This document shows positions 48,179 to 64,000 of a stretch of 64,000 bases of DNA, piece after piece. Each line of letters starts with the position of its first letter. Within the stretch, counting starts at the first letter, position 1. Made by a program: the position numbers and the translations under genes. The notes under the pieces were generated by a model. The model saw only the letters and a list, made by a program, of their open reading frames with translations, ran no database searches and was not told where the DNA came from. This stretch comes from Tetrapyrgos nigripes (taxonomy: Eukaryota > Basidiomycota > Agaricomycetes > Agaricales > Campanellaceae), in assembly GCA_013368315.1 (NCBI GenBank), contig JAACJM010000138.1, positions 157,640 through 221,639 of the forward strand, read 5' to 3'.

Positions 48179-49546
48179 TTGACAACCATTTCTTTCCAAG
48201 CTCCAGATACCAGTGAGAGTGACTCTGATAGCACTCACACTGCTCTTGCTCCTCCTCCTACAGTTCCCCAAGACTCCTCCTCCACTCCTCAGTTCTCTCC
48301 ACCCTCTGTTTCTTCTGCCTCATTACCTGGGTCCCCCACAATGTCTGAAGCTTTTGATGCTCATCTGGCCCATCTTGAGCAGGCTTCCCAGAGTCAGAGC
48401 GAGCAACTCACTGAGATCCTCGCTGCCCTCCAAGGCTGAAAACCCCCTCCACCTACTCAACCCCCATCACAACACCCCACTCGACCTCCATCCTCTGCTT
48501 CGTCTTCTTTTCCTCCCTCTCATCACTCTTCTGGAGCTTCATATGCTAAGGCATCCCCGCCTGGCATCTTTGATGGTCAATGTTCTAATGGCCGAGTCTG
48601 GTGGACTAGTGCAATCATTTATGCCAGCACAGTTCGTTTCCAAGACGATATTGCCAAGATCATGTGGGTGTTGTCTTACTTCCAGACAGGTCGTGCTGCC
48701 ACCTACTGCCAGAGCCTCATCAACCATGACCACCTCTATGGCTCCTCCTGTTTCGATACCTGGGAAGAGTTTGAAAAAGAGTTCATTAGGGAGTTCATGC
48801 CAGAAGAAGAACGCACTCAGGCTAGTCTCACCTTAGAGGGTGTCTCCTACTTTCAGGGCCCAGCTTCTGTTGACGAATATGTCAACAACTTCTGTGCTCT
48901 CATCACCATGGCTGGCCTTAACGTTGAACCCGTCCTCTACTCCACGAACCCTACTGCACCTACCATCAAGGCCCGACTTGAGGACGCAAAACATGTTGGC
49001 CAGACAGTGGTCCTCAAATTCCGACGTGGACTGCAGCCTGCTTTAGAGAAGAAGGTTGCAGAGGCAGAGGATGTCATGGCTTGGTATTCCCTGGCCAAGA
49101 GGTTTGATAAACATGAATGGGAAGATGTGATCTTCTGTGGTGCTCAGAGAAGTGTGCACCCTGGTCCACTCAAGCCTACTTTCCCCTCACGTGCTCAACC
49201 TCAGGGTTGTTCCCTCTTCCCAATCCAGTTCCCTACCCCTGCTGCTGCCCCCATTCCTGCCCCTCGTGCACCAGCCCCTGCCCAAGCTCCTCTTCCCCAA
49301 GGCATTCCCATGGAAGTCAACACTTTGAGGCAGAGGTTCCTAGCCCACCGCACCTGCTACACATGTGGCAAAACCAGTCACTTCTCTGCAGCATGTCCAG
49401 ACCACCAACATGAACATGTTCGTGTCATGGATATGTCTGTTGATGACTGGCAGGAGATTGCAGAAGCATATGTGGCTTTCCAGGATTTTCAAGCCGCCCT
49501 GATGAATGAGCCTGCTCAGGAGGATTTTGCCAAGGACCAGGAGTGA
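48179..49546 (+). pseudogene. Gypsy-2 gag with zinc knuckle, one stop
   Basis: The first part (SLPGSPTMSEAFDAHLAHLE) ends at TGA near 48437, where the same TGA also occurs in Gypsy-1. The frame then continues unbroken through KASPPGIFDG, YFQTGRAATYCQSLINHDHL, EEFEKEFIREFMPEEERTQA and SVDEYVNNFCALITMAGLNV to the knuckle CYTCGKTSHFSAAC and ends at 49546. The shared TGA suggests that it was inherited by both copies, or is a recurrent hot spot. Confidence 0.8.
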
Positions 49547-51370
49547 TGGACACGCCCTCATGGTCAAAAAATAATTACTTTGCATGTTTATCTACAGACT
49601 CTACCAATGATAACGATTGTATCTCTGCCCCTGAGTCCATGTGTGAAGTAATTGCCTCAGTTGTGTCTCTCCCTGCCCCCTCTATTTCCCCATCCATTCC
49701 TTCCATTCATCGTCCAGTTCCTTGGCACCGTCTAAAATGTTGGGAATGCTGTCTACCTCACAAATTAGTAATCTCCTCCGACAGAAGCCCCTGCCTGACA
49801 GTCCCAATAGAGCTAGAGTCCACATCTAATGCCTCTCTGATCTCTGGCAGTGCACTCATCGACAGTGGAGCCACTAGTATGGGTTATGCCAACACTGAGT
49901 TTGTCACCAAGAACTCTATTCCTACCCGGAAACTCCAGAAGCCTATCCCTGTCTTCAAGGTCGATGGCACTCCTAACGAGGCTGGAGCCATAACCGAGAT
50001 CTTGGACACTATCTTGTGTTTCAAGGATCACTCTGAATGCATCCAGCTCACGGTCACTCAGCTTGGCAGCCAGGATGTCATTCTTGGCTATGGATGGTTA
50101 TGAGCCCATAACCCTGAGGTGGATTGGGACAATGGCAACATCAAGCTCAGCCGGTGCCCCAGGCAGTGCTCTATGTGTCATGAAGAAGTACAACAGGAAC
50201 GTCAACTATCTCTATCTGCTGCCTGTCATCAACGCCAAGCTCTGGAATGTTGTTGGGAAGGTCCATCTCCCCATGTTATTGAATTGGACCCTGGTGAAGA
50301 TGAGATGAACAACCTTGGGACCTTTGGCTGTGATGACTTCCCTGACGACGTTTCTATTGAGGAATGTGACCGCATATTTGTTACCTCGGTTCCTCCAGAG
50401 TCGGAGTTCATCAGAGTGACAAGCACCACTTCTCAACGTCTAGCAGAAGCACATGCCAAGGCTTCGAGGAACCCTCATGACAGCCTCCCTGATCACTTCT
50501 ATGAGTATGTAGATGTCTTCTCCAAGGATTCTTTCGATGTGCTGCCAGACTGCAAACCATGGGACCATGCAGTAGAGTTAGTCCCTGACTCTAAACCTGC
50601 CAATTGCAAGGTCTACCCACTCACTCCTAATGAACAAAAGGCCCTTGATGAGTTTCTTACAGAGAATCTGTCTACTGGTCGCATTCGTCCCTCCAAATCA
50701 CCTATGGCATCCCCAGTCTTCTTCGTAAAGAAGAAGGATGGAAACCTCCAACTCGTCCAAGACTATCGCGTGCTAAACGAGATGACGATTAAGAACCGTT
50801 ATCCATTGCCCCTGATTAACAAACTTGTTAATAACCTCAAAGGTGCACAATACTTCACTAAATTGGATGTACACTGGGGTTTCAACAACATCCAGATTCG
50901 TGAAGGCGACAAATAGAAGGCAGCTTTTTGCACCAACCGTGGTCTCTCCGAACCCCTTGTCATGTTCTTTGGTCTCACCAACAGCCCTGCGACCTTCCAG
51001 ACGATGATGAATGACATTCTCCATGATCTCATCATGGAGGGTGTTGTATCTGTCTATCTCGACAACATCTTGAGGAGCATCATCGTGTGACTCGTCTAGT
51101 CCTGGACCGGTTGCGGCAACACAAGCTGTACCTTAGAGCAGACAAATGTGAGTTTGAAAAGACTTGCATTGAGTACCTTGGCATCATCATCTCCCATAAT
51201 CATGTCAAAATGGACCCTGTCAAGGTGTCTGGTGTTGCAGAGTGGCCTGTACCCGAAAGCAAGAGAGAGGTCTCCTCCTTCCTTGGATTCACCAACTTCT
51301 ACCGTTAGTTTATCCAGGACTTCTCTCATCATGCACAACCGCTGTTCGAACTGACCTGAAAAGACACAGC
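49543..51370 (+). pseudogene. Gypsy-2 pol fragment: protease and RT
   Basis: Overlaps the gag stop by 4 bp. Protease retains SGSALIDSGATSMGYA with the D-S-G triad. RT has [40 protein letters not shown] and VMFFGLTNSPATFQT. The catalytic box reads SVYLDN, with the second Asp changed to Asn, followed by a short deletion. The thumb region (KLYLRADKCEFEKTCIEYLG) is present up to QPLFELT. Stops are at 50101 (TGA) and 50915 (TAG). Confidence 0.8.
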
Positions 51371-51477
51371 TGATGCTGTAATACTTTTGTATAGTACCCC
51401 AATACCTTATCTGGTAGGCTTTTGTAAATGATGCGGACAATAGATATACTGGGCCAAATCCCTCTGGGGCTTGCCTA

Positions 51478-51497
51478 GCCTTCCTAATTAGGAAGGC
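51478..51497. repeat. Perfect 20 bp palindrome near the left end of element B
   Basis: GCCTTCCTAATTAGGAAGGC is self-complementary. It lies about 110 bp inside the inferred boundary, among the first CTTTTGTAAA copies, so may be part of the terminal recognition region. Confidence 0.8.
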
Positions 51498-51651
51498 GAG
51501 TCTGGAAGCCATTGGAATGCCGTCAGTTAGGAAGCGGCTACTCGGCATCATGACTTTGGGTCGTAAATTACGGCCTTTGTAAAATATGGTCAGGGAGTGC
51601 GCTTTTGTAAAAAGGCAATCACATACTTTACAAATCTAGAATATATACATC

Positions 51652-54600
51652 TTAGTACTGCTCATCCTCTAGCTCTTTCAGCATGAGCGTGATATTGACA
51701 GCCTCCTTCTCTGTCTCCTCCTCCTCATCAGAACCATCATCCTCCATCGCTCTGCTCTCAAACTCTTCCCCTTCCAGCATTTCTTCCTCGGCCTCATATT
51801 CTTCTTCGTCCTTGTCCTCTTCTTCATCCAGATCTTCATTGTCAGCCTCAGCTAATCCTAATGATTCATTTCCCATCTCCTCATCTCCTCCTTGTCTTCG
51901 TCATTTCGGCTGGTAGTGTGACTTGTGTTGAATAGATCTTCGAGGCTAAGATTTCCAGTGTCAAATTGCAGGCAGGCCTTTGTGGCCAAGGTATCCCAGA
52001 TGCTCTTGAACCTCTCTGCAATAGATCAGCGAACAGCCGCTTGTTGATATGCATAAGCACTCAAACCATCCAATCTTTCTCCCTCAAAGTTGGGTAAATT
52101 GGCTCTGGACTCCCATTGTTTGGCTTGCCATTCAAGGGAAACCAGGCAGTGGCACATCTCTTCTCGGAGAATCATTATCTCTTCCCTCCACTGTTTGACT
52201 TGTGCATAGGCCTTGCACCACTCCATGCGTAGCCCTTTTGTTTTTGTAAATGTGGCTGATAGGTGTAGCCAGATTTTTAAATTGAGTTGGTCAAATGGAA
52301 TTCCAAGAAATCCCATGATCGAAGCCAGATTTTTGCGGAGGGAAAGAGGAGACCAATAGGTTTGTAAGGTGGGCAGGTGTCCAGAAGAAAGAGCATGAGA
52401 GTTGTAGAACGGGTAAAGGATTCAGGGTGGGTGTTTTGTAAAAGATAACATTCAAGAGATAGGTGGTTTTGTAAATGGGTTGGTGACCAGATATGTCAGG
52501 AAAGTTTCGTTAAATGATAGATTTATGTTAAAGGCCAATCACCATCGGCAGATGGAAGGATTTGTAAATGTGGATGATGGGAGTTTGAGAGTGCATTTTG
52601 TAAAACAATGGAATAGAGAATCAGCAAGTTTGTAAAAGTCAGTGACAGGCAAATGCACTCACCGTGATATAGAACTTGGTCAGTTACAAGTTCACCAGTA
52701 CTGACCCCATGCCAGATCCAGGAAACTCTTTCCTGTGCTTCTCCCGTGCCCCTTCAACTGCGTTCTCACCATGCAAGCTTTGTCGAGCAGCCTCAGCTCT
52801 CTTCGCTTTTGCTGCCTTGATGTTCTTCTTTTCAACCTCCTGCAAGTCCTCCATACAAATAATATCCTCGTTCCTCAATGGATTCCATTTCACCAGCGTT
52901 ATATTGCCCACCAGTGATAGCTTCGCCTGCCATGCATTTTGATAGGTCAATGCCACAATTTTCACCTTCTTATCTTGTCGTATAAGAAGTGAACAAGAAC
53001 GAGTGGTAGCACCTTGATTCATTGCATTGGTTTTCTTGTAGCAAAGCAGCTGTTGCTTCACCAGCAGATGATTTCGGAGATGATTCAGGGATTCATTGAG
53101 CTGACCCTCACAAAGTCAGAGCTCGAAATCAGTGAGCTGTGAATGATAGTTGTCAGAGGAACTACAGTCCTCAACAGAAAGTTTGGAAGGCAGAAGAAGG
53201 GGTAGATCTTCAGCATTAAGAGACGCTTTTGAAGGGGGCAGTGTAGCAAGTCGTTGGAGGGATACAGGTGAGTAAACCAGCTGGAGAGCATGAAATCGTT
53301 TGATCTGCTTTGTTATCTTTGTCCTTCGATCAACGAGGTGAGTTAGTTGTTTATTGGTTGGGTTACTAATTGATTTAATATCCTCGCGAAGGTCTCGTCT
53401 GTAAAAGGAAATGTATCTTAGATGCAGACTTTTTTGGAAAAGAATAGTTACCACTTACTGAAGCTGCTCAATCTCCAGACCAAGGAAGAGGAATTCCCCT
53501 GGACTAATTTCAAAGTCTGGAAGGTCATCAACCTCCTCATCACTGCTATCCTCTTCACCAACAACCATCCTTTCCTCTGACTTCATCTCCTTCCAAGCCT
53601 TCTTCTCTTCTTCTCAGGCTAGTTCCAGGCAGGCACTTTGAAGAGTCTTGCCTAGTATTTATAGATGAGGTCATGATGAATTTACAAAAATGTGGGGTAA
53701 ACTTACCACTAATCGGTAAAGCATATAGATTCATTTCAGTTTGCTGAGTCTCATAATCATCGACTATCTGTTTCCATTGTGGAGCATGTTCCATTTGCTT
53801 TTCTGTGAAATCCTTCCAGACTTGAAACTGGATCTGAAACTGTGCAACAGCATTTATGAGACGCTTTTTCAAAAGTGCACCTGAGTTGTTTTGTAAAAAC
53901 ATAAGTCAAGCCCCAGCTTTTGCAAAAGCGACACATACCAAGACCACAAACTTTTTGCCAGTTCCAATGGCCAATGTGATCGTCCAGGGTGTCATGATGT
54001 GAGCCAGGACCCATTTCCTTCGCCCTGACCACACTCTTTCAATTCCCTCTGCATCAGTTTGACCTGCGCCATGCATGTAATTGGTGGAGAACTTTTCCTG
54101 ACATTTCAGAAGGTGACCAAGAATGTGAAGCTTAGGAATCACAAAGCGAAGGATGTGAAGAGTAAGGTTCAATCGAACTAATGCTGGGAGTTTCTTGAAT
54201 CGTTCAACAAGTTTCTTTGACCATTGACAAACAATATCATAACAGATGATTAGAATAAGGGTGGCAGCAATGTGACACAGAAGAGAAGCCTTGATGTAAT
54301 CCATATTAGCATATCTGCAAAAAGATTAGCTAAGTCCTAAAATTTGAATATTGTCGATTGCTTTTGTAAATGAGCTTTGGATTTTTCGAGCACATTTACA
54401 AAAGCAGTCGACAAAAGAAATAATAAACCTACCTCTCTCCAATCTGTGTTGGTCCCATCCCATTCCTACAAATCAACTCATGCCAAGCACAGGATCCAGC
54501 ACCCTCTCCACTATTGTCATAACCTTCATAGAATTTTGTGTTTGCATGGTCAAGTGCAGCCAGCCCAGTACAAGTGCTCATCTGGAGCACAGGAGTTAGT

Positions 54601-56169
54601 ATTAGCAATTTTAAATGTTGATCACATTCTCACCTCCTTCTGGTCCTCCATCATTCGGCACCATTTCAAATAAGGTCCTGATTCAACAAAATAAGCCATG
54701 CCATCCTGCAAGCTGGGGTCTCTATCCCAGCTTGAAACCTTCTTTCTTTTCAACCGGAAGCAAGCGTCAAAAGAGAGGAACATGTAATATATAAAACTGT
54801 TTGTTTTGTAAAAGGGAATATCAACTTTACAAAAGTCGTGTAGGAATTCAGACTCACCTCTTTCCAAGTGGAGTCTGGTCCCAGTTAGGAGGAAGGTTGA
54901 CTGCTGGATCTGGACAAGCTGGACAAACGAAGCCAAGCTCCCCAGGCTTCGTTTCCTCAGTATTCCTTATCCCATCATTTCCTCGACCACCACGCCTAAG
55001 CATCTTCAAATTTCTCCACTGTCAAACAGTCCGTAGGAAGGTTGGATAACGATTCTGCAAGAATGTACTGTTGGTCAGACATTGGTGGAGTGAGGTACAG
55101 AATTGACTCACAGGTATTTTTGTACCGGTGTTATCTGTGAGCTTCTCCATTGACTTATAGTAATCGAAAGGTGTTGTCTTTCCACATAGATTCAACATTT
55201 GAAATTGGGTCATCGTCTCGAATGTAAATGCAGTACCCAGTCTTGTGTGAGTCCCAGGAAACCAACGAGCATGCATGAGTTGCTCCCATTTTTGATGTTG
55301 CATGCCAGTTGAAAGTGACCTTGACCTCGTACATCCACAGTAGTTAAGGCGAACGCGATGACATCCATTGGTGTGAAACACTACAAATTTGGAGGGGCCT
55401 TTCATGGGAAGGTCACATTTTGACCCATCTGGATGACTGAGCTGAATGGTGAGACCCAACCGTTTTAAGGAGACCTTTTCAAAATATTTCCCATTCCAAA
55501 ACTTCAAAAATGTAAGTGACTGTCGAGCGCTTTTACAAAAACTAAAAGCCCACCTCTATGTTGTGCAGCAGATTGGAAAGGTGACTCTCCACGCAGCAGT
55601 CCTGGCACACCAATCCACCATGGGAACAGTAAACACATCGGAATGTTGGTTCCATTGGTACATGGTCTTCTGGGCAGCTAGGACAGGTCGCCGGTAGACA
55701 ATCACCCTGACCCTTCAAGATCATCAGAACATTGAGGTATTCCTCTCTATGCTTCAGGAAGATTCGCATCGGTCTGTCCTGAATAGGTTTAGGTTAGGGT
55801 AAAGCCACACAGAACCAGGATAAAATTCACTGATGCGTATAGCTTTCTCCTTTGCCCAACTTTGGTGACATGACCATTCTTAACTTGGTAGAGAAACCCA
55901 TAATACATCCTCTGTGGAAAATCCTCATCCCCTAAATCTGACCAATCTGGATCTGCCTCAATGGCAGTATACACACGTGCTTGATGGCTAGGAACTGTGG
56001 TCATGGAATTGTATGCCCTCCTTCCATCAGCGGAAACGTGCGAGACTTCTGTGATAATGTTGTCATTGGGATCATTGTAGTTGACTCCAAGTGCTGCTAA
56101 GGAAGTGATCCCCTTGAGTGCATTGATATCAGCTTTTCTGGGACGCTTTGCTGGCCTGGACGTTGACAT
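51652..56169 (-). CDS. CxC2-class KDZ transposase, about 14 exons
   Basis: DDE-type transposase presumed to mobilise element B. From ATG 56169: basic start (MSTSRPAKRPRKADINALKG); the CxC2 cysteine cluster (CPSCPEDH, FRCVYCSHGGLVCQDCCVES, about 55690-55600); GKYFEKVSLKRLGLTIQL; NYCGC (about 55340); QLMHARWFPGTHTRLGTAFT; LTDNTGTKIP; CPACPDPAVNLPP (54920); first catalytic block SFDACFRLKRKKVSS (54770); CAWHELICRNGMGPTQIGER; second block YDIVCQWSKKLVERF (54235); HILGHLLKCQEKFS and TDAEGIERVWSGRRKW (54080-54010); coiled-coil exons; and an acidic tail ending at 51652. Asp, Asp and Glu positions look conserved, but TGA codons near 52024 and 53616 stand where Arg is expected. GT-AG introns often contain the element's palindromic motif. 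Confidence 0.9.
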
Positions 56170-56386
56170 GGAGGCAAGTGAGAAACAGAATTTAAGCGAG
56201 GATGACGTGGAACTCTGATGACAAGGGCTGAGGTAGCACAAAGACCTGTTGACTTTACAAAATTGAGCCATACAGACCACTTTATTTTACAAAAACATCT
56301 GATCATAACTGACCACTTTTACAAACACTGATATAAAACGACCTAAGATGTACATAGATGGAGTGTCGCAGAAAGGACAGACGACT

Positions 56387-57213
56387 TCAAATGGCAGCAA
56401 TAAACTCTTCAATGAGGAAACGATCAACAGTGGCACGCATATCAGGCTCAAGCTCTCTATCCAATAAATCCCAGAACGCAGCAATAGCACTATCCCTGAG
56501 AAAGGTATGAGATCACAGAAAAGGGCTGACTTTGGAAAGATACCTTGAACTATAGAAATCTATGCCACCAAGATAATGAATGACGAAAACAACAGCTTTG
56601 CCCTTACTAGAACTGGTAAGGGTTGATGCTGAGGTGGTGTTGAGCTGGGCCTTTGATGGACTAATGCTTCAGGATCTGGGTTTTGTGGGAGACTGGGGTG
56701 GAGTCTGAATGGCTGAAGGTGCTGGGAATGGATGAGGATATGAGACGCCAAGGTTAGGTTGAGCCTCACAATTGAGAATAGAAGTGTCGACCGGATTTGC
56801 TGGGAAGCCCTGCCTTCTGGGAGCAGCCTGTGTCTTGGCTTCAACCTTGAGCTCTGAGTCAAATGGTCTGACGAGAGGTTGAGCTTCTGAGCCTGAATGT
56901 TGGTGAAGGTTGGAGCAATTGAACATCCAAGTAGACAGAATGGTGTCTTTCTCGGACTCATGGTAACCTTTTGGCTCAGGCTGTTGTGGTTTGGAGAGGC
57001 GGGCTAGGTTTGAGGCCAGTTTTCTTGAGGAAAAATGAGCTGAAGTTTGCGTGAAAAAAGAATGCTTACTCACTGATCCAAGTAAATACCAGCAGAAGAA
57101 CCACAGGGAATAAGGTAATATTTGAAGTTCTGATGAGCAGTAGCAAAATAAGGCCCAACAGTCTGTATGAGCTTTGGAGAGCATCCACGAAAGTCTGCTT
57201 GAGTTGTCGACAT
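56387..57213 (-). CDS. Element B hypothetical protein
   Basis: Start ATG at 57213 (MSTTQADFRGCSPKLIQTVG, then NFKYYLIPCGSSAGIYLDQ). A GTGAGT donor follows near 57074 and an acceptor ends TCAAG near 57024. Exon 2 is Pro/Ser-rich (SKPQQPEPKGYHESEKDTIL). A last exon, after an intron at about 56545-56498, reads SAIAAFWDLLDRELEPDMRA and ends EEFIAAI at 56387. The YYLI-x5-GIY segment faintly resembles the short viroplasmin/RNase H N-terminal fold (a W/Y-Y-x-V-x-x-G-x-x-x-G-V/I-F/Y pattern), but I would not assign it. It sits between the TET/JBP and KDZ genes on the same strand. It may be an accessory protein of the transposon. Confidence 0.5.
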
Positions 57214-57790
57214 GAGTGTAGAAGGTGGAGGTTGGATTCGTCGGAGCTGGAAAATCGTGTATGTTTGAACATGCACGTGGGTCCTGAGAAGCAATTGATA
57301 GCTTTTACAAAAGCTCCGCTCCAAGTCCATGTAGATTAGAGCTAAGATGGAGCATGGAAAGAAAACAAGCACAACTGATACAATATTTCAATCTTGCAGT
57401 GCCAGATTGAGTTGTCATTGTTGAAATCAATGAATAGCCATTTTGAGTTGAAACAATGATTCCAAAATGCTTCAAACGGACTTAATCATGAGGAGCTGAG
57501 ATTGATTGTTGAACATTCAATGTTTGCCTGATCCAATCTTTGATTTGATTAGAAGGAAGATTTGACTTGGAACAGACTCAGAGTTAAGTTGTAAGTTCAC
57601 TTCCGATAGGAGTGGAATAGATCATATAGATGCATCTATGGTTCATTCCACTAAACAAGTCATTGGTTTAATGTGGAAGATAGATCAGATACACTATATG
57701 TCTCTATCTATCTTTGCTTCACCTCAGTTTCCTCAGAGGAACCTATGTATCTCAGAATCAAGCAAGAACAACTTGAAATCAACATATCAT
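57214..57790. other. Spacer between TET/JBP gene and the hypothetical protein
   Basis: AT-rich. Contains ATTGAATGTTCAATAA-type imperfect inverted words near 57400-57560, and one CTTTTACAAAAG at 57303. No gene is recognised. Confidence 0.4.
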
Positions 57791-59654
57791 CTATTTAGTT
57801 TCGTACCTCTCTCTAAGCTGCTGCAATGTAGAGTATTTATTTAAGTCATCTTTAATCCTATCCTTCTGCCTCTTTTCAGCTTCTTCCACTTCTAAATCAG
57901 ACATCTGACTTCTCATTTTAAATCCATCCTCAACATACCAAAACAGGTCTCCTGTAGTATACTGTGTAAATGAATAACATGTTTCATCAGAGCCAATAGC
58001 AGTGTTGCAATGCTCAAGATAAGCGGAGGGTAAGAAAAAGGTCCATCCAGGGGGAAATTCAATGACAAGCTTGAGCTTCCACAAAACAATATGCCCTCCT
58101 TTCCTAAAGTCGAAATCTCTGAAGGCAGTGATAGCACACCATCCAGCAATGTAATTCTTGTGATCGATGTGGCTGATACATTCCGTCTTTGGTCCAAAAT
58201 TGTATGTGACACAACAGAACATGGATTTCATGAAAGTAAACACCAACGAAGGGTCGTTTGTCTTCAACTTGGTCCTTATTTCACCATACTATTCATAAAG
58301 GTTTGGGGACCAATGAGCAAAGCAAGCAGATGCATGTCCAGCCATACGGATAAAGCATTGCTTGTGTCGAAGGTGATTCAATGCAGCAGCGGTCTTCTTT
58401 GAGTGATACAGTCTTTTGGGGAACTTTTACAAAAGTGCACATTTATTATTTTGATTTTACTAAAAAGGTCGGGTCTTACAGTTTGACCACCCCCAGCAGA
58501 AACACCATCTGCCTTGACTCTATAAGTGCCTCATCTATGAAATACCTGCTCAGGTGGAAACAAAAGCCCTGGCTTCATAACAACAAGAACACCTTTCCTT
58601 TTCTTCTTTCCACCCTGCTTAACAACCTCTCTAGGATTGCATTCTCGCTCCAGTGCTTTAGCTGCTGGCTCAGCAACCTTCTTGATCCAATCGGCCTCCT
58701 TGACGTCCTGGGGGGAGGTACCAAGCATCCAAATACTATGTTGTTGGAATCAAAGAGTGGTCAGGGTGTGTTACTTTTGTAAATGCATGGTATAAGCAAG
58801 CTGAGACATTTGTAAAAGTAAAGGATAATACTTGCCTTTTCACTTGCACTAGAGTAAAACCTAGACCTCCCTCTCCACAGAGCTGCTCCATTGTCCAGAC
58901 TTCATTCTTCAATCCCTCAATACCGTTTGCCCGACCAATATAGCCCAATGTTGAATTTACCATTCTGCCTATACTATAACTGTTTGGAACCTTGGTTTTG
59001 ACGCTCTTCAGCATTTTTTGGCCAGCGGGGCTGCGGGGCTGATATGAGCTTGGAGATGCGAGAGACCTCTGTTTCGATCTTGAGACATGGGAGCGGATGG
59101 TTGACTTTTTGGACATGTTAGAGACAGTAGCTTCTGGTAAGTTTGATCTGGCTTTCTTGGGCTTGGAACAACGAGTCCTTCTCTTGCATTTACCAGTTCT
59201 TGGGGTTGATGCAGATGGCTCGGACTCCAATGTTGCATCTGATTCCTCTGTCTCAGGATCCAATTCCTCTGAGGAGAGGGCGTGTGTGGCATTGAGGGGT
59301 GGGTTGTCCTGAACCTCGTCTAATTCTGAGGGGTGAGGCTCCCCATGAAGCAGCATGGCCAGGTCAAAGTCGAAAGGCATAGGTGGTTGAAAATAACTGC
59401 TGTCCCACACGGTGAATACATTCCCAGACCAGGTCTGGATGGAAGCAGCGTAAGACATACCGGGGAAGTAAAAAAATGCGTACCTTTCTTATCATGAGTG
59501 GGTGGGGACCGAGTGAGGATGCTGAGTCCAAGAAAACTGGGAACCGGTCTAAATAAAACATTAAAATAAGCATATAAGAGAATGAAAGAAAACACATACC
59601 TTTATTATCACGAGCCTTGTGGATCCTAGAAGAGAAAATATCAGCATGCTGCAT
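57791..59654 (-). CDS. TET/JBP-family 2-oxoglutarate/Fe(II) dioxygenase, probably inactive
   Basis: This family oxidises 5-methylcytosine or thymine in DNA. The likely start is ATG 59654 (MQHADIFSSRIHKARDNK). Introns follow at about 59599-59551 and 59485-59436. An acidic/basic linker (59435-59000) and a region with GMLGTSPQDVKEADW lead into RMAGHASACFAHWSPNLY and the double-stranded beta-helix (58267-57880): FGPKTECISHIDHKNYIAGW with the H-x-D iron site, CAITAFRDFDFRKGGHIVLW, KLKLVIEFPPGWTFFLPSAY, distal His in LEHCN, and ETCYSFTQYTTGDLFWYV. Family members normally have Arg at the ETRYSF position that binds 2-oxoglutarate; here it is Cys (TGT, from CGT by one transition). A TAG lies in frame near 58306. 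I infer a recently disabled gene. It is divergent from the gene at 59977. Confidence 0.85.
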
Positions 59655-59976
59655 GTGGCAAGTAGGAGAAGAGTAGTGAACTGTGAGGTCAACATAGATG
59701 CTCACAGGACGTGCCCAGGATTGAGAACAGAGTGGAGCTATCAAGTCGACATCCACAGTTCACTACTCAAGAGATTTGGGCTGTAAATGGGACTTACTGA
59801 TCTATGGTTGTAGTTTGTGTTTGTGTTTGCGTTGGCAGCAGAGAGGTTCTTTGAGGTCACATGACACCTGTTCAAATGCTGTCAAAAACCTTCAGCCTGT
59901 TGCCACTCAGAAGCACGCTTCTTCAAAGTTCCACGTCCACATTTACAAATCAAGCCTTATCAGTATACCGGTTACA
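59655..59976. promoter_or_regulatory. Divergent intergenic region of element B
   Basis: About 320 bp separate the TET/JBP start and the ATG at 59977, so the two genes probably share a bidirectional promoter. Further 5' exons of either gene could lie here. No clear TATA box was seen. Confidence 0.35.
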
Positions 59977-62900
59977 ATGGGAAAACAAAGCAAGTCCAAA
60001 AAGGCTATTAGCAAGAGGGCCAAACACACTAAACTGCCCAAAAAGCATGCCAACCCTGGATACTTCGCCGGCGATGCGCTTGAGTTTCTCGAGTCAAATC
60101 TCCAGAAGTACATCGACTCAGAAGATTCACGCGAATCGTTTTGGAACGACTTCTTTCAGGAGTATCACAAGAAGTTTCCAGATGATTTGACTGCCAATGA
60201 GAAGTTGGAGGTGAAGAAGTTGATCCAAAAATACAATTTGGATCGTGATTGTGGAAGAAAGGATGAGGATAAAGAAGAAGATGGTGAAGGGGACAGCGAT
60301 GACAGAAATGAAAATAGGGAAGAAGGAGCAAGGAAAAAGGGAGAGTTGGAAAAACGTGGGAGCGTGGTCTCCTCAACAGCACCTGACGCATCTGATGCAT
60401 CCAAAGCTAGTCCAGCACCCGAGTCTGATACCGCCATCCCTTCCCAAACCGTCAGTCAAGCGCCCAAAGCTGGTCCAGCACCCAAGTCCGATACCGCTGT
60501 CCCTGTCACTCAAGCGCCCATCACGTCCGATTTGGCAACTCAGCAATTGAATGCTGGCGTTGCCGTCACAGGAACACGCTACTGCTGCCGCTGTTGCAAC
60601 CCCTGCTTCCAATGCCCAGTCCTCTAAGACGACTGCTGAGGACTCCTCTGCATCTGTCCCTTTGGATTCAACAGCTCGAGCCCCAAATCTTGGTAAAGAC
60701 ATCACCACTGCTCCTTCCAATGACCCGTCTTCCTCGACAGGGGTAGCCAACGGCAACTCCAAGAAGAAGGATCCGATTCTTCTGGATGATGAAGACAACG
60801 CTCCTGTGAAGAGAGCCCATCATTCCCAGAGGACGGAGGAGGAGAACCATCTGCTGGCAAGGGGTGCTACTACCACGGTAAGTTCTCCTCTAGATTTACA
60901 GAAACTTTTACAAAAGTGACCTTTTACTAAACCAAATTTTCAGAAAATAAAGACCTGGTTCTCAAATCGCAACACGAAGCACAGGGCAGTTCAAAGGCTC
61001 ACCGGTCAAGACCTCGTCTCCACCCTCCAAATGAAGTCTCTCCCACCTGCTCGCTGTACCACCACTGCTGCCAAGTTCTATGAGAGTCATCCCGATTACA
61101 AGGCGAAAATTGATGAGAAATATATGGAAGAGTATGGGCCAATTGACTCCAACAACAAGAACTACCTCCAGAGACACACCACCATCGCAAAGAAGCTGTT
61201 CGAAGAGGAAGATGAGGAGACTTGGGCAAAGATTATTCAGGAAGCAAAGGAGCAGCAGAAAGAGGACAAGGAGGCTTGGGAAGCCCTCAAGAATCAGGAT
61301 CCCTTTGACAACACTGACCTTGAGTCCTTGGCACTGTGAGTACCCCTAGAGCTTTTGTAAAAGTTGAAGTTATGAATCGTTCATTCTAGTCATCGGCAGC
61401 AACTGGGCCCAACGCTACATTCCCTTTTGACCAACACAAAGATCTCATTGGTTGCAATCGGGAAGGCTTTGGATAGTGAAAAGGAGGATGATATATTCAG
61501 CTGCAGGTAAGCTTTCTTGACACTCACTTTTACAAAAGTAATAAGCTAATCAGGTTTTTTTGCAAAAGCGTTCATGCTGGTACAACTCCAGGGGAAGATG
61601 GCAGGACATTTGCTCAGTGGGATGCTCGTGGTTTCAAGTTCCATGCAGCTGTCTTTGGCGAGTTTGTGAAAGCATGTATTTGGCTAGAAAATGGTAAGCT
61701 CTCGATAAACTACTGGCATGTGATTGTCCACTAACCTTCTATCAGGTTTGGACGCTTGTCCTGCAGATTGGCCGAAGTTCTTCGGGGTCAGTGAACCTCC
61801 TGAGGATATCATGACCGTGCCGGTGTATGTGCCTCCCAAGGAGACTGCTGGCTCATCGAAAGATGGTGCCGAGGCTCAGCCATCGTCTTCAAAACCTGGG
61901 CCCAAACCCAAAGGTAGTGCCAAGCTGAAACCCAAGTCAAAGCCCAAAGTCGTCCTCAGTGCCAAAGCAGCTGGGAAAAAGAGGAAGAAGGACGAGACAA
62001 GTGAGGAGGAGGCTTCGGACAGTGATTATAGTGGGAAAGATGGGAGTGGTGAGGATGAGGAGGATGGAGAAGAGGATGAGCTGCAGAATGAGGAGGATGA
62101 TATACCCATGCTGCCATCCACTCCTCGGATTCAGAGGACTCGAGAGGCATTTGTAATGGATGCTATGGAGGACGAGCTGGCTGCTATGGACACACCCACT
62201 CGGAGGAAGGAATTACAAAAGCTCTGTGACATGGATGTGCACGCATTTAGGAGGGCCAACGATGCTGCCACAATGAGGAAGCTCAAGGGAGATGTCGGAG
62301 TCAAGGGCGCTATGAAAAGAAATGCCAGCTGGAAAGAAGGGAAAGAAGAATGCCAAGAAGACCAAGGCGAAGGGGAAAGAGGTTGAGCCGGTGGCTAAGA
62401 AACAGAAGATGGTCGTCACCGTCATGCAAACCCACAGCAAGAAGAACCAGACTGTAAACTTTGAGGAGAGGGCCAAGTCTTCAGTACTGTTGCCTGCTCC
62501 CAATTCTGTGGTCCCAGCACCCACCCCAAAGCCTGTGGAAAACTCCCAGTCTGGTCCTGCTCAATCCAAACAGCAAACTGCACCCCCCACACTCAATCTT
62601 CCCATGCCCTCCAATGCCAACAAGGAACTCTGCCTCTTGAGGGACCTTATTCTCTGCTTGCCTTTGGTTGTTGAAGAGGGGAAGGACAGCAATCCCATTG
62701 CCGTGTCATTCTACTCAGAGCAGGATGAACCGTGGGAGAAGACATGTCTGGCCCTGACTCATGGGAACATTGGGATAGCTTGTTGAACACTCTTTTGCAA
62801 AAGTTGGGACAGAGAGTGAGGAGGTTTATGTGAATAAGCTGGTCAAAAGGGGCAAAAAGGGAACAGCGGCGTTGTACTGGGCTTTGGCACATGTCATGGA

Positions 62901-64000
62901 GCATGTCATCGACCCCTGTATGCTAGAGGGGAAGATTGATAGGGTGATTAATGCTATCTAAATCAAGTAAGTTGTTTCTTCTATCATCCACTTTTGCAAA
63001 TTGGTTGGCCTGGGTCCACTGTTGGTCTTTTGCAAAAGTTGACACCATGCTATCTCCTGTTTTTGTAAAAGCCTTATACTGAGTTCTACACTCCAAGGTG
63101 CCCAGAACTCAAAGTCCCGCTGAAATCTGCACCCATCACAGCACTGTTCCCCTCCCATCCAACAGTCCTACAACACACCTCTGTTCCACCCATTGCTACA
63201 TTGTCAGAACCTGGTCCCTCCACCACTCCCACATCCTTTCTTTGACTTCGTCCTCCAGTATCTGGAACAAACACAGTCTTTACACCATTGCGACGTACAC
63301 CTTCCCTTCCCCTGGTCCTGCTCCTGAAAAGGAGTCACCACAGAAAGGTGGAAAAAGGAAGTTTGAAATGGTTGCCCTGACCACTCCTGATGATGAACGA
63401 CCACCTTGGGTAACCAAAATGGAGAACTACCTTTCCTGGGGTGTCTGGTCCAGCATGGACAGAGGCTATCGACAACCTGATCGTCATGGAATCGCTGTTT
63501 GGGTATGATCGAGGAAGCAAGACCCTCTCTACAGTAAATCAGCCGGAAGCTGTCCAAGCGTGGGTAAAGAGTGGCAGAGAACCTCTTCTTCCAGCTCTCA
63601 TTGCATTCAACCCTATGGAGAAGGACTATCCGCAGCTTTTACAAAAGTTTGCAAACTCTATAGTGACTTGGTGGAATGCACTGCAACCAGACTGGAGGAG
63701 AATTGAGACCAATCCTGATGACATTGAGTCTTATAGCTGGGTGAAAGAGGTGAAGGGTTCATGGGATGGGCTGAGGTGCCATGGAGTCAATGGGTTTCAG
63801 TCCCTATTGGCCCTGTTGAAGTGGTGGATAATCCTGGATCAGAAATTCTTGTGGAGAACAAGAAGAAGAAGATTGAGGTTGATTTGTCCAAGTCAGCCGA
63901 CTCGCAGACTGGTTCATCTGTTTGGACCAAGACCCTTGCTGACATCGTCTGGGTCATGTGGTCCATCACCCAGGGGATGTATAGCAGCCAAGGACCCCTT
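59977..64000 (+). CDS. Element B divergent gene: basic/acidic protein with homeodomain-like helix, runs off the edge
   Basis: Start ATG 59977 (MGKQSKSKKAISKRAKHTKL). A helical segment (SFWNDFFQEYHKKFPDDLTA, NEKLEVKKLIQKYNL) is followed by a long acidic Pro/Ala linker. After an intron (about 60881-60942) comes KIKTWFSNRNTKHRA, which resembles the recognition helix of a homeodomain (x-x-x-WFxNRRxKxx). Next are VSTLQMKSLPPARCTTTAAK, further exons with KISLVAIGKALDSEKEDDIF and FKFHAAVFGEFVKACIWLEN, a Lys-rich/acidic region, and a Trp-rich end (TWWNALQPDWRRIETNPDD, WDGLRCHGVNGFQSLLALLK). Frame changes near 60560, 62330 and 63820 may be indels. It could be two genes. Function unknown; DNA binding is inferred from the helix. 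Confidence 0.5.

Follow-up and report, generated by a model that had tools for sequence, protein, structure and literature searches.

The window analysed here comprises 64,000 nucleotides of Tetrapyrgos nigripes contig JAACJM010000138.1 (contig C135 in our numbering). A DNA transposon of ~13.2 kb begins at position 51367, and this copy, lying at the end of the contig, runs off it at 64000. It has genes for a CxC2-KDZ transposase, a TET/JBP-like oxygenase and a homeodomain-like protein, and along its whole length it carries copies of a short palindrome, CTTTTGYAAAAG. The analysis covers one genome (98.5 Mb), in which ~0.3 Mb of sequence was read and exon limits were set by eye.

A Kyakuja-type transposon with a TET-like gene

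The transposase frames match Pfam CxC2 (PF18803; E=2.7e-37 at 55022-55555) and KDZ (PF18758; E=7.9e-24 at 53906-54325), with a further KDZ match at 54622-54966 (E=4.7e-4) that falls below Pfam's cut-off. Because both domains are present, we assign the element, from its sequence, to the KDZ (Kyakuja-type) DNA transposons. The window copy has a TGA stop at the end of the 55022-55555 frame, which is the CxC2 exon, where siblings have CGA. The left end was set by siblings that are mostly 92-96% identical in the longer matches; the right end is visible in C289, C11a and C325b, and in C289 lies 592 bp beyond the point matching the end of the window. The terminal inverted repeats are 64 bp long, the left repeat is identical to the C11a right repeat at 57 of 64 bases, and terminal repeat matches occur at 27 places genome-wide. 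The element ends are CA..TG, and the two copies examined for target duplications have 7-bp ones, perfect in C227 (CTGGCAT/CTGGCAT) and with a single mismatch in C7 (GTGTTCA/GCGTTCA).

We use the name Kyakuja on the strength of these duplications, the CA..TG ends and the type of TET, as described in PMC12730594, rather than on a transposase phylogeny. The TET-positive Kyakuja of Agaricomycetes treated there likewise have a KDZ transposase, a TET/JBP-like enzyme, CA..TG ends and 7-bp duplications. In contrast, the two Kyakuja families of L. bicolor are stated in PMC12730594 to be without inverted repeats, which we take as a difference between families and not as exclusion of our element from Kyakuja.

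The 57791-58288 frame has 187 relatives, and the named ones among the 120 listed are from Agaricomycetes (for example Dendrothele bispora, 59%). In an alignment of 40 sequences, H40 and H93 of the iron triad HxD...H are invariant and D42 is at least 90% conserved. Neither a single-sequence nor a profile search of the PDB returned a TET match, and Pfam gave no match for the frame, so its identity was settled by fold. The AF2 model (pLDDT 88) aligns in Foldseek with CcTet of Coprinopsis (8jkk) at 2.3 A over 93 columns and with NgTET (5cg9) at 4.4 A over 118; the lowest E-values belong to gamma-glutamyl carboxylase, but at 8.7-20 A rmsd. The modelled structure thus shows a TET fold, a double-stranded beta-helix with the iron triad, and the predicted activity is oxidation of 5-methylcytosine.

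A palindrome dispersed across the element

We followed the motif in four forms: the full 12-mer CTTTTGYAAAAG, the ten-mer TTTTGYAAAA, the 8-mer core TTTGYAAA and the geometry CTTTT-NN-AAAAG. With both strands searched and every site counted once, exact word counts between 51385 and 64000 are 9, 18 and 36 for the 12-mer, ten-mer and 8-mer, against 0, 0 and 2 between 1 and 51384. When mismatches to the 12-mer are allowed, the element (from 51367) and the left part of the window contain 21 and 0 sites at one mismatch or fewer, 34 and 4 at two or fewer, and 52 and 65 at three or fewer. The original prediction, made from the letters of the window by eye, that this motif is concentrated in the element therefore holds for ten-mers and 8-mers alike, and the positions it gave are right within a few bases in the cases compared. 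It also placed the limit of the motif at the left boundary of the element, in agreement with an inverted repeat that begins at 51367 and a first 8-mer core at 51421. Its tally of 'well over thirty' copies is correct only if 8-bp cores are counted.

The same distribution is seen outside the window. Throughout the genome, CTTTTGYAAAAG occurs 299 times on the forward and 304 times on the reverse strand (symmetric copies being counted on both), which makes it ~16 times commoner than the reversed control word, with 19 on each. Pairs of CTTTT-NN-AAAAG sites 5-35 bp apart number 47 per strand, and the reversed pattern gives none. The centre between the half-sites is fixed at 2 bp; other spacings tested (0-8) yielded 0 or 1 each per sequence. 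Within 11 sibling regions (window included), TTTGYAAA occurs 267 times inside the elements (100.5 kb) and 36 times outside (108.4 kb), whereas the reversed word is found once inside and nine times outside. The motif is thus present in siblings, and its density is far above the genome's reversed-word control; the matched control is provided by the homologous introns of distant relatives described below. Sites outside the elements include a tandem array in C325 (L034 3952-4495) and others to the left of the C10 element, in sequence resembling that at C185 and C97. The tandem repeat at L034:3900-4560 (C325:12.3-13.0 kb) has an ~80-bp unit with two motif cores each, lies outside the part shared with the window and, by eye, could be read in frame as repeats with FAK.

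Most of the 36 cores of the element lie in introns and spacers, as had been predicted: 14 are in transposase introns, four in introns of the homeodomain-like gene, three in introns of the TET gene and three in the intron or spacer at 62993-63062, with three on the 3' side and three on the 5' side of the transposase gene, one on the 5' side of the homeodomain-like gene, one in other spacer and one in the terminal repeat. Only three of the 36 fall inside reading frames (62794, 63638 and 63648, exons by eye); 62794 and 63638 both read as LLQK codons. Each terminal inverted repeat contains one good core and one CTTTTGTATA. Relative to the gene in which each core resides, the asymmetric centre is AC in 17 cases and GT in 12, with six symmetric cores and the terminal site left out. 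The motif thus occupies both strands without preference, and because the sites are strand-neutral we consider that they act as DNA rather than RNA. A search of the window for RNA families gave no match at gathering score. Occurrences of CTTTTGCAAAAG in print were provisionally judged unrelated.

The sites also tend to pair. Gaps of at most 40 bp number 16 among the 36 that separate the 37 consensus sites, where 4.2 are expected and 5000 simulations never gave more than 12; for gaps of 28-36 bp the number is 13, with 0.9 expected and no simulation above 5. A distance of ~32 bp corresponds to three helical turns and would set two dimers on one face of the DNA. Pairs elsewhere in the genome also show other spacings, such as 24, 30 and 38.

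Features of the element in the window; exon and intron limits by eye where noted
Positions	Strand	Feature	Details
51367..51430	+	Left terminal inverted repeat	starts CAGCTGATG; TTTGTAAA at 51421, partial copy CTTTTGTATA at 51384; common left end of siblings
51576..51634	.	Motif triplet (51576, 51604, 51627)	3'/subterminal region of transposase gene
51653..56170	-	CxC2-KDZ transposase gene, several exons	Pfam matches, exons by eye
52233..52660	-	Long transposase intron, six cores (52243, 52435, 52468, 52561, 52597, 52629)	limits by eye
53880..53936	-	Transposase intron, two motifs (53890, 53919)	limits by eye
54326..54434	-	Transposase intron, motifs 54363 and 54395, 32 bp apart	limits by eye
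54780..54862	-	Intron B, 3' of CxC2 exon, motifs 54805 and 54826	
55500..55545	-	Intron A, on the 5' side of the CxC2 exon, with a single motif (55532)	
56254..56325	.	Motif triplet spaced at exactly 32 bp	~85-155 bp upstream of putative transposase start
57791..58288	-	TET/JBP-like 2-oxoglutarate dioxygenase exon	alignment, AF2 model, Foldseek
58426..58816	-	Motifs 58426, 58776 and 58809	presumed introns of TET-like gene
59977..62960	+	Homeodomain-like gene; helix-3-like WFSNRNTKHR at ~60950	splicing from sibling C11b
60878..60943	+	Intron directly before helix-3 exon, holds CTTTTACAAAAG	
61336..61568	+	Two further introns and the exon between; motifs 61354, 61529, 61559	
62793..63655	+	Motifs 62794 and 63638/63648 inside frames; 62993/63029/63062 in intron or spacer	

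Motif and recognition helix among relatives

To place the element among its relatives we scored 150 CxC2 exons in the genome and sorted them by CxC2 identity into subfamily 1 (at least 78%, most >90%), subfamily 2 (52-67%) and subfamily 3 (47% or less), the elements of which are known from short pieces only. In loci of 3.4 kb, subfamily 2 carries CTTTTGCAAAAG and CTTTTTCAAAAG, and its member C185 mainly CTTTTGTAAAAG; the motif centre, GT/AC, thus shifts to GC and TC in subfamily 2. By contrast, CTTTT-NN-AAAAG is absent from four subfamily-3 loci (L026, L027, L029 and L030, 3.4 kb each), and no other dense motif is evident in these four. Two 8-mer cores each are found in L027 and L028.

The two introns that flank the CxC2 exon were also compared. 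C185 (67%) has four copies in intron A; C10:676 kb (61%) has CTTTTATAAAAG in intron A, with none seen at intron B, where the exon is apparently rearranged; and C48 (59%), C270 and C472 (58%) and C489 (56%) have a copy in both, which in intron A is one copy in C48 and one core in the other three, and in intron B is CTTTTGCAAAAG in all four. At 56-67% protein identity, therefore, most of the related copies examined share the motif in corresponding introns, while the introns themselves look otherwise unalike by eye; C48 and C270 diverge in their exons at 22% of non-CpG bases. In subfamily 3 (L026, L029, L030), neither intron around the CxC2 exon contains the motif.

This restriction to one clade is also seen across the genome. 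We defined clade places by rule as CxC2 exons of at least 52%, TET exons of at least 52% and all 27 terminal-repeat matches, the surroundings of which (within 10 kb) make up 0.9% of the genome. Within that fraction lie 46 of the 70 12-mer sites on contigs C1-C19, which were the ones used, and 41 of 73 CTTTTTCAAAAG sites; adding all 41 homeodomain-like matches (1.3% of the genome) brings these numbers to 49 and 48. Around the first 60 CxC2 exons with at most 47% identity, whose 10-kb surroundings amount to 1.2% of the genome, there are none of either (0/70 and 0/73). Some of the unassociated sites belong to motif clusters that have no scored exon (C4:1129 kb, C10:777-781 kb and C435). There is also a second type of array, in which motifs are linked by TATAGCATATC spacers, at C4:1129323-1129396 and C10:732247-734116 and on C62, C113, C131, C197, C257 and C428; these arrays recur across many contigs, mostly with no scored Kyakuja exon in the vicinity, and may represent subfamily-2 element ends or a relative that is non-autonomous. 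Beside the subfamily-2 element in C48, GTATTAC/GTAATAC occurs eight times in ~300 bp (L016:3141-3447), apparently by local duplication, and was set aside.

The homeodomain-like gene offers a second line of comparison. Splicing of the gene at 59977, worked out on sibling C11b, yields a long frame interrupted by one stop ahead of the helix exon and by further ones late in the translated stretch; the helix exon has 41 matches genome-wide. We compared 17 of these 41 places, taking ~200 bp each where the match starts near the query start and leaving out near-identical subfamily-1 copies; three of the 17 (C48:342 kb, C211 and C7:56 kb), which have no scored CxC2 or TET exon nearby, were sorted by helix sequence only. 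In these stretches, which surround a common exon start, a motif core is found upstream of the helix in seven of seven subfamily-2 loci and in none of ten subfamily-3 loci; the GY core of C185 stands ~70 bp upstream of the helix, and CTTTTATAAAAG is closer to it. The helix differs between the two groups as well. Helix 3 reads WFSNRNTK in the window, WFSNQSTK in C185, WFSTRLTK in C104 and C211, WFST*LTK in C48, WFSTHLTK in C270 and C489, and WFLTCPTK in C10, whereas in subfamily 3 nine loci have H, R or Q after WFH or WFY, and C243 has WFSHKRIQ. The contrast is therefore mostly WFS[NT]xxTK in the motif-bearing group versus mostly WFH[HR] in the motif-free group. The pair of residues that follows WF corresponds, in a canonical homeodomain, to positions 50 and 51, which make main base contacts.

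A proposed reader of the palindrome and its possible role

These results establish with good support that the element carries a paired, clade-restricted array of one motif along its whole length, terminal repeats included, and that the motif is present in homologous introns of its subfamilies. Fixed half-site geometry, pairing, strand neutrality, spread over the whole element, clade specificity and presence in the same introns of otherwise different sequence are best explained by sites for an element-encoded dimer. The homeodomain-like protein is the strongest candidate for the reader, since its recognition helix varies together with the presence of the motif; the CxC2 domain or a host factor is possible in this role. 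Among siblings (51367-64000 plus L031-L050), consensus CpGs have changed in 42% of cases, nearly all to TG or CA, compared to 0.9% for other bases (at positions covered by at least six copies). Such strong CpG decay is as expected of methylated DNA and suggests heavy methylation as well as young copies. Given this decay and the TET-like enzyme, anti-silencing is the most economical purpose for the array. Our leading proposal, plausible although we hold it somewhat short of probable, is that CTTTTGYAAAAG (core TTTGYAAA) is the predicted site of a dimeric element-encoded protein, most likely that of 59977-62960, which guides TET to the element's own copies. With palindromes spread over introns, spacers, promoters and both terminal inverted repeats, the protein could coat the whole element and direct the TET/JBP-like oxygenase that the element carries, and perhaps the transposase as well, to the element's own copies; 5-methylcytosine would then be removed or altered, and silencing would be countered without opening the rest of the genome. 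The overall purpose would be self-recognition, working like the anti-silencing motifs of VANC/VANDAL with TET as the effector. Binding by an element protein, its identity, binding as a dimer and recruitment of TET are all steps that we infer. The fuller version, in which self-addressed demethylation evolved in one Kyakuja clade with motif and helix changing together, as an independent fungal counterpart of VANC/VANDAL that carries the oxidising enzyme itself, is more doubtful, and we offer it only tentatively.

Several observations weigh against this proposal. The homeodomain match is weak: the only PDB match is 3a01, at E=0.21 over 27 residues, Pfam homeobox does not match the protein, and a search for its relatives found none. 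The correlation of motif and helix amounts to one contrast of two clades, possibly one event, is weakened by the three of 17 loci that were sorted by the helix itself, and has exceptions in the WFLT of C10 and the WFSH of C243. Within subfamily 2, the part of C185 intron B that is shown has no motif, and C43 (53%) has it in neither intron A nor intron B. Motif bases have changed in 12 of 2195 cases (0.55%) compared to 93 of 8815 in the flanks (1.06%), a conservation so mild that strong purifying selection on the motif among siblings was rejected. There is also no footprint of motif-local protection: CpG decay is unrelated to distance from the motif (Spearman 0.007, p 0.90, 355 CpGs), and the CpG excess is similar in motif-free pairs (L026/L030, L027/L028) and motif-bearing pairs. 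Decay after silencing would hide a demethylation footprint, but the lack of an effect speaks against protection of resting copies. The original suggestions about function are partly supported. A binding site for an element protein best explains the clustering in one clade, the homologous introns, the palindrome with its fixed centre, the strand neutrality, the pairing and the helix contrast, while the choice of protein is our inference. A mark that separates the element from host DNA is consistent with the data and is favoured, by analogy, through the VANC-like reading; the independence of CpG decay from motif distance counts against it.

We considered whether the array is a functionless by-product of A/T-rich composition, shared ancestry or repeat expansion. 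Siblings are so similar that their copies are not independent, the tandem array of one sibling holds 11 cores, and one of three scrambled control words, TTAGYTAA, occurs ten times inside and twice outside siblings; yet the other two are not enriched (0 vs 6 and 6 vs 11), the reversed word is at genome background, on which ground simple A/T composition was rejected despite TTAGYTAA, and subfamilies with seemingly dissimilar introns nevertheless have the motif in homologous ones. Nor do dispersed direct repeats connect the window copies: the only repeats of at least 30 bp between 48000 and 64000 are one pair situated to the left of the element. We regard a by-product as very unlikely. An RNA-level intron signal, such as a splicing enhancer or 3' splice site context, is less likely still: most window copies are intronic, and by eye two introns, intron A (in C48 and C270/C472/C489) and intron 3 of the homeodomain-like gene, have their 3' splice AG within the motif, but copies occur as well in the terminal repeats, in regions upstream and 3' and in reading frames, and the homologous subfamily-3 introns are motif-free in the loci examined. 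A splicing signal was set aside because the sites are strand-neutral and also lie outside introns.

Two further alternatives concern the protein that binds and carry more weight, although both are unlikely. The sites could form a transcriptional enhancer array for a host or element transcription factor, unconnected with DNA methylation. Intronic enhancers are common, three copies stand at 32-bp steps upstream of the putative transposase start, and one lies 35 bp upstream of the ATG of the homeodomain-like gene. However, the motif clusters in one clade and has a count of zero around 60 more distant CxC2 exons, which hardly points to a host factor that has general targets, and distant relatives with CxC2 and homeodomain-like exons are motif-free in the stretches examined. 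It is no more probable that the CxC2-KDZ transposase or a partner binds the motif for transposition, with internal copies aiding synapsis or titrating transposase. The two motif-like copies in each terminal inverted repeat fit such a role, and Spm/En TNPA is an earlier example of a DNA-binding protein from an element that occupies repeated sites (PMC2613891), but the sites extend over the whole 13 kb without a pile-up at the ends, many of them in introns and upstream regions, and of the two terminal copies just the second is a good core, with CTTTTGTATA as the first.

For the proposed mechanism, the closest published system is, by analogy, VANC/VANDAL of Arabidopsis MULE transposons. There, according to PMC5735166 and PMC10398659, a short motif is dense in the introns and upstream regions of one family and rare in other elements, related families have different motifs, motif-bearing tandem repeats vary in number, and the element gene product differs between families. 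The likeness lies in a family-specific short motif dense in the element's non-coding DNA. The differences are a distinct transposon superfamily and kingdom, a 12-bp palindrome often paired at ~32 bp instead of mainly tandem repeats, and a homeodomain-like candidate in place of VANC, together with a carried TET-like oxygenase. Membership of VANDAL/VANC itself was rejected, as the transposase is KDZ and Pfam results for 20 reading-frame pieces include no MULE match. TNPA of maize Spm has a role in demethylating that element. According to PMC2613891, TNPA, like the reader predicted here, is an element DNA-binding protein separate from the catalytic transposase that acts on a repeated short motif; its sites are subterminal, whereas ours are spread across the whole element.

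Fungal transposons that carry TET are known; a question they pose is how the enzyme could act preferentially on the element that carries it. PMC12730594 proposes TET-based escape from methylation and speculates that this type of TET acts untargeted; the words homeodomain, CxC2 and VANC are absent from its main text. We found no literature linking Kyakuja with a homeodomain, or KDZ transposons with a homeobox, in a search that lay outside most subscription journals. A clade-specific array with a candidate reader makes the question of own-element targeting directly testable. If the proposal is true, a VANC-like strategy would have arisen independently in another kingdom and transposon superfamily. 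The palindrome can also be used as a diagnostic for this clade. Judged by eye from reading frames, the window copy is inserted in a Ty3-type retroelement. Its flank (48440-51366) and the right flank of the C289 copy are both Ty3-type pol sequence, at a similar place by eye, and a target preference for retroelements is possible.

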